NCBI RefSeq assembly: GCF_900637845.1
Contig: NZ_LR134439.1
Span: forward strand, 62,001 to 126,000
DNA from: Erysipelothrix rhusiopathiae
Lineage (GTDB): Bacteria > Bacillota_I > Bacilli_A > Erysipelotrichales > Erysipelotrichaceae
Reading direction: 5' to 3'
DNA length: 64,000 nt
Numbering within the stretch: the first letter of the stretch is position 1; each line of letters begins with the position of its first letter. The translations under genes and the position numbers were made by a program. The notes below the pieces were generated by a model, which worked only from the letters and a program-made list of their open reading frames with translations, was not told the DNA's origin and ran no database searches. Below, piece by piece: positions 5,380 to 15,467 of the stretch.

Positions 5380-5408
5380 ATTATACACTATTACATTCAT
5401 TCGCAAAA
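5380..5408 (-). promoter_or_regulatory. Probable promoter of the PTS-like/mutS/mutL operon
   Basis: A perfect -10 TATAAT reads on the minus strand from 5385 to 5380. The -35 at the usual distance (TTTTGC, 5408-5403) is weak. It sits between the divergent PTS-like and rodA genes and decides the start of the former, because transcription would begin at about 5373, past the longer reading frame's ATG. Confidence 0.55.
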
Positions 5409-5417
5409 GGAGGCACG

Positions 5418-11382: not shown

Positions 11383-12006
11383 ATGGAAAACAATACTAAG
11401 AAAAAGAAAAAATTTAATTTATTTGGTTTTTTAGGAATTATGATGATCCTCGCAGGATTGGGAATAATCATTTATGATGTCGGTTCTTCTTATCTTGAAC
11501 GTGAAGCGCTCAAACGAGAATTACAAGATTTCCTTAATGCTCCCCTACCTCAAGATGATTCTGATGGTCCTTCAAAACAAGAAACTGATAAATGGGGATC
11601 AATCGAGATTGAAAAGCTTGATATCAACCATTTAATTGTGAAATCTGACGACTGGGGTTATCTCAATCGTTATGTTGTAGCCTGGAATCGGTCAATAGAC
11701 CCTCCTGGAGAAGGAAACTTCTCAATTGCTGGACATAATGGTCGTTGCGCAAGCTGTGTCTTCCGTGATTTTGAGAAGATTGAAAAAGGCGATACGATTA
11801 AATTACATCGTAAAGAAGATAACACTACTTATATATATAAGGTTTACGATAACTTTGAAGTTCCTTATACTGATACTTCTGTACTTAATGACGATGAATC
11901 TCGTGGAGCTACACTTACTCTTGTAACATGTACCGAAGCAAATGATTACAGCGTTAACCGTACAATCATTAAAGCAGAACTTGAAAGTTCTGAACCAACT
12001 CGTTAA
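11383..12006 (+). CDS. Sortase (LPXTG transpeptidase)
   Basis: A cysteine transpeptidase that cleaves LPXTG-type sorting signals and links surface proteins to the wall. The 207 residues have a lysine-rich N-terminus, one membrane segment (about 13-33) and a catalytic domain. The triad is visible: His in SIAGHNG (about residue 118), Cys in TLVTCTE (about 183) and Arg in SVNRTII (about 193). Cys in a TLVTCT context fits sortases of classes A or D; I cannot separate them. Two LPXTG proteins in this window (41.8 kb and 57.6 kb) are plausible substrates although they are not linked to it. It is divergent from dnaX and converges on tadA. Confidence 0.92.
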   Translation: MENNTKKKKKFNLFGFLGIMMILAGLGIIIYDVGSSYLEREALKRELQDFLNAPLPQDDSDGPSKQETDKWGSIEIEKLDINHLIVKSDDWGYLNRYVVAWNRSIDPPGEGNFSIAGHNGRCASCVFRDFEKIEKGDTIKLHRKEDNTTYIYKVYDNFEVPYTDTSVLNDDESRGATLTLVTCTEANDYSVNRTIIKAELESSEPTR

Positions 12007-12014
12007 GTAAAGAA

Positions 12015-12080
12015 ACAAATAAAAACACCGGATCACGGAACTAGGTCAGTTCCCATATTTGATTCGGTGTTTTTATTTGT
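12015..12080. terminator. Bidirectional terminator with 21-nt arms, overlapping the tadA 3' end
   Basis: Arms 12015-12035 and 12060-12080 are complementary over 21 positions, with one G-U pair and a 24-nt loop. The outer parts are A- and T-rich. The right arm encodes the last residues of the tadA fusion, whose stop codon (12043-12041) lies in the loop. Confidence 0.85.
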
Positions 12081-12937
12081 TTAGTCATTTTTATATGGGA
12101 AATACCAGCTTCTTCGAATATTTCCCCAGCTTCTTCGAATCCTTGCCGTTTATAAATGTTTATTGCACTTAATTGAGCATTAAGTTCGATTAAGTGAATT
12201 CCATTGTTCTCGGCTTGTATGATTGCGTAACGAACCAACTTGGAAGCAACTTTCTTATTCCTAAAAGGCTTTAGAACAGCAAGTCTTCCAACTTTCATGG
12301 TTCTATTAGCGGATATGAGCCTCATCGTCCCAATTACCTGTTCTTGTTTAATGGCAACAATATGCTCAACGCGGTTGTTTTCAAGTGTATCGAGCGCATC
12401 GTACTCCTCTTTTGGATCAATGTTCTGTTCATTAACGAATACTTCTTTACGAACTTTAAGATAACTTTCGAATGTATTTCTATCTGCTTTTTTGATTTTT
12501 ATTTGTTTATTACGTTGTTGTTTGAAAAAGTCTTTCATTAACTGTTTTGCTTTTTCTTCTTCAACTCCTGCAATTACTGTAGGATAGTGGTTATACCCCT
12601 CTATTTGAGTAAAATCAATAACCGATCCTAAGCAACCACTTTTCGGCTCCTTTGAACCGTATACAACAGTACTCACTCTTGATTGCATAATCGCGCCGGT
12701 GCACATTGCACACGGTTCGAGTGTCACATATAAGGTACACCCTTCTAAGTTCCATGACCCAAGCGCTTTCCCTGCTTGATCCATTGCAATGATTTCCGCA
12801 TGGCCTGAGGGTTGATGTTGTGTTTCTCGAACATTATGTCCTCGTCCTACGATTTGATTGTTATGAACAACGACAGCGCCTACCGGTACTTCTTCAAGAT
12901 TATATGCAAGAAGTGCTTCTTGGTATGCCTCATCCAT
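12041..12937 (-). CDS. tadA: tRNA adenosine deaminase TadA fused to a GNAT acetyltransferase
   Basis: Residues 1-150 are TadA, which deaminates A34 of tRNA-Arg(ACG) to inosine. The zinc and proton-shuttle motif HAE (SGHAEIIAMDQA) and PCAMC (LEPCAMCTGAI) are both present. Residues about 155-298 are a GNAT acetyltransferase with an acetyl-CoA loop (RFRNKKVASKLVRYA-type) and a terminal NAQLSAINIYKRQGF segment, like ElaA/YjcF proteins. No stop or frameshift separates the halves, so this is a real fusion unless there is an assembly error. ATG 12937 is chosen because TadA homologues begin at this point and the longer frame runs into the SRP RNA gene. The upstream SRP RNA and nearby dnaX match the Bacillus tadA-scr-dnaX neighbourhood. 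Confidence 0.9.
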   Translation of the reverse strand: MDEAYQEALLAYNLEEVPVGAVVVHNNQIVGRGHNVRETQHQPSGHAEIIAMDQAGKALGSWNLEGCTLYVTLEPCAMCTGAIMQSRVSTVVYGSKEPKSGCLGSVIDFTQIEGYNHYPTVIAGVEEEKAKQLMKDFFKQQRNKQIKIKKADRNTFESYLKVRKEVFVNEQNIDPKEEYDALDTLENNRVEHIVAIKQEQVIGTMRLISANRTMKVGRLAVLKPFRNKKVASKLVRYAIIQAENNGIHLIELNAQLSAINIYKRQGFEEAGEIFEEAGISHIKMTKQIKTPNQIWELT

Positions 12938-12976
12938 ATATTTGTGATGTTCGATTGATAACGCCCCCTTATATAC

Positions 12977-13062
12977 AAAAAGAGCCACAACACACATAAG
13001 AGCTAATGTAAGGCTGCTGCATTCCTGCCCTGACCTGGTTAACTAGATTATGTTGTTGTAGC
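12977..13062 (-). ncRNA. ffs: Signal recognition particle RNA (small 4.5S type)
   Basis: On the minus strand the segment around 13038-13011 reads GGTC-AGG-GCA-GGAA-TGC-AGCA-GCC. This is the invariant helix-8 domain that binds Ffh: a GNAR-type GGAA tetraloop, symmetric AGG/AGCA internal loop and flanking GGTC...GCC. The ends pair over about 14 positions (GCTACAACAACATAA with TTATGTGTGTTGTGGC), closing one long hairpin, followed by TTTTT at 12981-12977. At about 86 nt it is the short form without the Alu domain found in Bacillus SRP RNA. The promoter lies just upstream. Confidence 0.93.
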
Positions 13063-13068
13063 ATAGTT

Positions 13069-15253: not shown

Positions 15254-15461
15254 TTTGAAAATAAAAAAAACACCTCTTAAGGGACGTGTAAACGTGGTGC
15301 CACCCTTTTTCATATGTTCCACGTGGAACATACCTTTAACAGATAACGGTTGTCTTCCGAAATGAATCTCTCCAGGGTGGAACTATAAAGTTTTATAATG
15401 ATTTTCACCAAGCATCATCTCTCTTAAATAAAACAGTTATATTAATCCCTCTCAACGAGTT
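15254..15461 (-). promoter_or_regulatory. T-box riboswitch leader of serS
   Basis: The minus-strand leader contains the T-box core AGGGTGGCACCACG (about 15305-15291). It is followed by a terminator stem with AAGAGGTG and a run of eight T (15274-15259). Further upstream lies an AGAGA element of Stem I (about 15423). The antiterminator bulge reads TGGC; the C pairs with a G discriminator base, as tRNA-Ser has, instead of the more common A. A UCC triplet in a plausible specifier position (about 15380) fits serine, but I have not folded Stem I. Uncharged tRNA-Ser would switch the downstream terminator off. Confidence 0.92.
15315..15330. other. parS site inside the serS T-box leader
   Basis: TGTTCCACGTGGAACA is a perfect 16-bp palindrome and a known parS variant. 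It differs from TGTTNCACGTGAAACA by one base. It lies 2.2 kb from the first parS, a few nucleotides 5' of the T-box sequence in the transcribed leader. Confidence 0.85.
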
Positions 15462-15467
15462 AAGTAA

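Follow-up and report, generated by a model that had tools for sequence, protein, structure and literature searches.

A gene of Erysipelothrix joining the tRNA adenosine deaminase TadA to a GNAT acetyltransferase domain

In the window, the 64,000-nucleotide stretch of the Erysipelothrix rhusiopathiae genome (1.77 Mb, one contig) analyzed here, a single gene joins a tRNA-Arg-editing enzyme to an acetyltransferase, and the fusion is real. The minus-strand frame at 12041-12937 runs from ATG to TAG without interruption and encodes 298 amino acids, of which residues 1-145 form TadA and the remainder a complete GNAT domain, with almost no linker between them. The most probable reading, to which we assign a probability of roughly 0.6, is that the product is bifunctional and that the GNAT half has kept the substrate of its own family, acting independently of the deaminase. 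Few tRNA-modifying enzymes are as conserved as TadA, from which the adenine base editors are derived, and a natural C-terminal fusion shows what it can carry under selection. The parts of the gene are the following:

12503..12955, minus strand: TadA domain, Pfam PF14437/PF00383, closest solved chains 2b3j and 7cph; ATG at 12937, likely start ATC
12044..12502, minus strand: GNAT domain of the YjcF/SACOL1063/ElaA type, PF13673 at 62 bits, chains 5jq4, 5jph, 1q2y and 5z6n
12491..12517, minus strand: junction, residues RNKQIKIKK, from the alignment of 12 fusions and a codon listing of 12 genomes

The first half was readily recognized as TadA. PF14437 (MafB19-deam) covers residues 1-142 at 141.2 bits, PF00383 is a further Pfam match, the closest solved chains are both TadAs, and the NCBIfam TadA equivalog NF008113 was missed by 0.5 bit (149.5 bits, cut-off 150). 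The HAE and PCAMC motifs, described as intact in the earlier note, lie at residues 46-48 and 75-79, and H46-A47-E48 and P75-C76-x-M78-C79 are invariant in all 12 aligned fusions. This is the sole TadA found in the genome, the other deaminase match extending over only 56 residues at 32% identity. Among 54 of the 55 tRNA matches examined, tRNA-Arg(ACG) is present in two copies and there is no Arg(GCG) tRNA; with a single TadA and this tRNA complement, the deaminase should be in use. The description of the deaminase as essential reflects the usual view, but is weakened by the abstract of PMC10454642, in which the B. subtilis tadA (yaaJ) is reported to be dispensable.

The GNAT domain was judged complete from the outset, and this holds: residues 185-287 match PF13673 (Acetyltransf_10) at 62.0 bits (cut-off 23.6), and PF00583 also exceeds its gathering score in this half (49.6 against 20.7). 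The best solved GNAT chains are 5jq4 and 5jph (SACOL1063), followed by 1q2y, which carries the entry title 'similar to hypothetical proteins' and which we take to be YjcF, and by ElaA (5z6n). In the alignment of 12 fusions the TadA helix ends near R142 and the GNAT-homologous sequence begins at approximately residue 146-153. The stretch at 12490-12510, where a frameshift had been considered, is in frame. No in-frame ATG, GTG or TTG was found within the junction of the window, and none is conserved there in the codon listing of 12 genomes, which makes it unlikely that the GNAT is produced apart from TadA. AlphaFold2, run with an alignment of 13 rows, gave a mean pLDDT per 10 residues of 91-99 for the TadA part (residues 1-150); in the GNAT half, for which only 1 of the 13 rows is a GNAT, the values are mostly 30-60, and the arrangement of the domains is not readable from the model.

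Both domains are present in all 13 Erysipelothrix genomes searched, and in 12 of them, at 44-100% identity, a single frame runs through both with one stop codon, behind the GNAT. The exception is G101, where two overlapping frames were found in an assembly that is 88% complete and consists of about 270 contigs. That split is the one observation in line with a frame error having joined two genes in sequencing or assembly; since 12 of the 13 have a continuous frame, even where identity falls to 44%, and no start is conserved at the junction, such an artefact has practically no chance of being the explanation and was rejected for the genus. The outcome that would have undone the fusion, separate genes in relatives combined with a frameshift, is thus excluded within the genus; the separate tadA and GNAT genes outside it are the ancestral state and not an error. 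In G099 the fusion frame is intact although it is followed directly by a transposase-like gene and by a region other than the usual one. At this locus (L251:12842-13984) transposase-like genes stand immediately behind the fusion, and the block normally found downstream is displaced.

Purifying selection acts on both halves. Seven pairs of fusions were compared; four of them, not counting the distant pair G082-G100, have finite dS in both halves, and the remaining three are saturated in at least one half. In these four pairs the dN/dS ratios of TadA and GNAT were 0.07/0.11, 0.04/0.07, 0.02/0.13 and 0.11/0.05, i.e. ranges of 0.02-0.11 for TadA and 0.05-0.13 for the GNAT; two of the four have a dS exceeding 1.4. 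In the pairs nearest to the window TadA is more conserved than the GNAT, for example with 94% against 87% identity.

The remark in the earlier note that no widespread fusion of this kind is known to its author agrees with all searches as far as they reached. An order-wide search gave matches in 310 of 315 genomes, and among the rows listed the full-length ones all came from Erysipelothrix. No fusion of the same type was found outside the genus among the matches listed for these 315 genomes, nor among those listed at the level of the class (395 genomes) and of the phylum (295 genomes); low-scoring fusions of TadA to unrelated GNATs could escape the matches listed, as one described below did in the 395-genome class search. 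A scan of genome contigs for exact peptide patterns returned 20 stretches with three relatives and no fusion, a scan of viral contigs for the GNAT half found no relative, and a literature search found no description of a TadA-GNAT fusion.

The gene probably begins somewhat upstream of the ATG at 12937. The features around its two ends are:

12953..12955, minus strand: probable non-ATG start codon ATC; the aligned codon is ATG in 8/12, ATC in 3/12 and ATA in 1/12
12964..12970, minus strand: Shine-Dalgarno-like AAGGGGG, 8 bases before the ATC
12978..13065, minus strand: small SRP RNA gene directly upstream, RF00169, 64 bits
12019..12076, no strand: inverted repeat ATAAAAACACCG / CGGTGTTTTTAT, read from the sequence, between the convergent fusion and sortase genes
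11383..12006, plus strand: sortase gene, convergent with the fusion, PF04203 at 79.9 bits

Eight of the 12 fusions have an ATG about six codons upstream of the position matching the ATG at 12937, and the aligned start sits 7-8 bases behind the AAGGGGG. The other four carry ATC (three, including the window) or ATA (one) at this place; besides the window, these are the loci L036, L037 and L038. The start stretch of G099 has a stop codon immediately before it, so that no ATG, GTG or TTG start is available upstream there. A mechanical open reading frame reaching 12997 starts inside the SRP RNA gene. The simplest reading is that AUC or AUA is the likely tadA start in four of the 12 intact fusions; alternatively, the ATG at 12937 would be used, at a distance of about 26 bases from the Shine-Dalgarno-like site. 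At the other end, the last residues and the stop codon of the fusion lie inside the inverted repeat, which is probably a two-way terminator, and the sortase gene is found at the same place in all nine compared loci that show it. Elsewhere in the window, a T-box leader (RF00230) lies upstream of a seryl-tRNA synthetase gene at 15277-15464.

In the best tree all fused GNATs fall into a single group (support 93/88), which points to one joining of tadA and GNAT in the ancestor of the genus. The GNAT coding sequence would thus have come in frame behind tadA once, and would now be made only together with TadA, having no conserved start codon of its own. A possible source is the GNAT gene that some relatives have next to rodA or a CYTH gene. 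This is the position of 11 of the 46 stand-alone GNATs examined, 10 of these 11 also being beside a PTS-like gene, and in the relatives' loci showing both, tadA lies about 6-10 kb from this GNAT. The corresponding place in the window is:

5407..5417, no strand: gap of 11 bases separating rodA from the PTS-like gene; in some relatives a stand-alone GNAT gene lies here

The slot at rodA lacks a GNAT in all 13 genus genomes (the window, nine and three loci), and a relocation of the GNAT gene is therefore possible. Other stand-alone GNATs are, however, nearer to the fused ones in the best tree (86/87), a clade of the fused and rodA/CYTH-side sequences was neither supported nor rejected (p-AU 0.129), and the rodA-side gene points the opposite way, so that a simple deletion cannot explain the fusion; a move over 6-7 kb with a change of strand is possible. 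We regard this origin, which is compatible with all functional readings considered here, as tentative, with odds a little short of even.

The 13 fused GNATs were set against 46 stand-alone relatives belonging to the same family. Thirty GNAT positions do not vary among the fused sequences, and at 19 of these at least 41 of the 46 stand-alone ones have the identical residue. The near-invariant residues kept include R163, F167, E170, D180, D183, R206, R218, R226, Q255, Y262 and H281. The pocket has thus not been rebuilt, which argues for the family's own substrate and favors a bifunctional protein. The CoA-binding motif A of GNATs reads R/Q-x-x-G-x-G/A. Its arginine and last G/A are present in 13/13 fused GNATs, and its first glycine in 2/13, compared to 28/46 of the stand-alone ones; in the 11 others it is replaced, mostly by lysine, which may reduce the binding of acetyl-CoA. 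As a hallmark of the fusion the loss of this glycine was weakened, since 18 of the 46 stand-alone GNATs are without it too.

These substitutions bear on the reading that the GNAT half is no longer catalytic and has become a structural or RNA-binding addition to TadA. The replaced glycine would fit it, as would the somewhat less acidic cores of the fused GNATs, with a median net charge of -2 (n = 13) against -5 (n = 53) in stand-alone ones; the comparison was made on the GNAT core, since slices including the basic junction bias the fused values. The idea of a basic GNAT as RNA binder was set aside, as the gap shrinks to these values once the junction is excluded. A charge that is still around zero or negative, the pocket residues (including Y262) kept in 13/13 and the stand-alone enzymes that also lack the glycine make a non-catalytic GNAT very doubtful.

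For the bifunctional protein we favor, the proposed working is as follows. The N-terminal TadA would deaminate A34 of tRNA-Arg(ACG) to inosine, and the C-terminal GNAT would be a working acetyltransferase of the YjcF/SACOL1063 type acting independently on the substrate of its own family, for which an amino acid or another small amine is the likeliest candidate. The two activities are inferred, as are the small-molecule nature of the substrate, deduced from distant homologues, and the independence of the halves. According to a passage of PMC10267138, SACOL1063 is a homologue of an enzyme that, like SACOL1063 itself, acetylates threonine, and in the relevant part of PMC8666670 the malonyl-ACP decarboxylase MadA-N, which has a GNAT fold, is modelled on SACOL1063; for this reason such a decarboxylase was among the families considered for the fused GNAT. 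The independence of the GNAT is supported by a YjcF-type GNAT that also joins another partner: the protein at L126:1060-2214 (G064) combines a related GNAT with a methyltransferase domain. The L130 frame is similarly long. Of the three possibilities raised earlier for the acetyltransferase (tRNA, TadA itself or a small molecule), the evidence leans to the family's ordinary substrate.

A second TadA-GNAT fusion, independent of the one in Erysipelothrix and new here, was found in g174, which belongs to another family of the same class (loci examined: L201, L202 and L213-L218). A profile search revealed 338-residue open frames in G454 and G514 in which TadA is fused to an Acetyltransf_3 (RimJ/RimL-like) GNAT, scoring 80.2 and 76.1 bits (cut-off 25.4). 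Six of the eight g174 genomes carry the fusion, whereas in the remaining two TadA stands by itself and a GNAT relative is encoded separately; class-wide, it was found in 4/394 genomes, all of g174. In both fusions the GNAT starts shortly after FFxxxR, the conserved end of TadA, in that of g174 within about 10-15 residues of it. The recurrence of the same domain order with a tiny linker suggests more than accident would give. With a genus-wide fusion and a second, independent one, it can be tested directly whether acetylation and wobble editing are linked or tadA merely tolerates passengers.

Besides these fusions, four Erysipelothrix genomes (four of the seven loci tested) have a second GNAT gene at a distance of about 190-230 bases from tRNA-Arg(ACG):

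L002:1501-1881 and 2074-2150: second GNAT gene and tRNA-Arg(ACG), with the same pair at L054, L055 and L056

Among unfused tadA genes, GNATs account for four of 59 upstream neighbors (L007, L011, L197 and L100, from three genera), and none was recognized downstream among 65 neighbors read by eye. GNATs are a common family, and 4/59 is not clearly above expectation; a general linkage of tadA and GNAT genes was therefore not retained.

The two independent fusions in one class, alike in order and linker and different in their GNATs (Acetyltransf_10 and Acetyltransf_3), and the GNAT gene near tRNA-Arg(ACG) would both suit a functional coupling, in which the GNAT has tRNA, TadA or a translation protein met by TadA as its target, or couples I34 formation to the supply of acetyl-CoA. 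Coupling would also be in line with TmcA and Elp3, tRNA-linked, GNAT-containing enzymes that act at wobble base 34, yet the fused GNAT is not of either type, as neither their partner domains nor their GNAT types were matched when the fusion was searched with Pfam and NCBIfam. The retained residues of the stand-alone family, the unremarkable frequency of GNATs upstream of unfused tadA, and the restriction of the GNAT/tRNA-Arg pairing to one clade, with 3/7 loci tested being without it, also count against coupling, and we consider it unlikely. The more specific proposal that both fusions arose because acetyl transfer and wobble-34 editing cooperate, with the GNAT beside the deaminase acetylating tRNA, TadA or a translation partner or coupling inosine to acetyl-CoA, appears distinctly improbable.

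Compared to known systems, the first half of the protein resembles TadA (B. subtilis yaaJ; 2b3j, 7cph) over the whole domain, including HAE and PCxMC, and differs by the C-terminal GNAT, the narrowly missed NCBIfam model and the probable AUC start. The g174 fusion likewise has TadA followed by a GNAT over a tiny linker, but its GNAT is of the Acetyltransf_3 type and it occurs in only part of its genus. A Nudix-TadA protein from the same family (G047, L203:1156-2073) is alike in that TadA is fused to another enzyme domain, the partner here being an N-terminal Nudix domain; the gene immediately upstream of tadA in G080 and G037 is also a Nudix gene. TmcA and Elp3 share with the Erysipelothrix protein a GNAT on a protein working at tRNA position 34, and differ in their other partner domains and GNAT types. 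The closest relatives of the second half are the YjcF/SACOL1063/ElaA GNATs (1q2y, 5jq4, 5z6n), which are similar over the full domain with the 19 near-invariant positions kept, whereas the fused form stands behind TadA, has no start of its own and has the first glycine of motif A replaced in 11/13 sequences.
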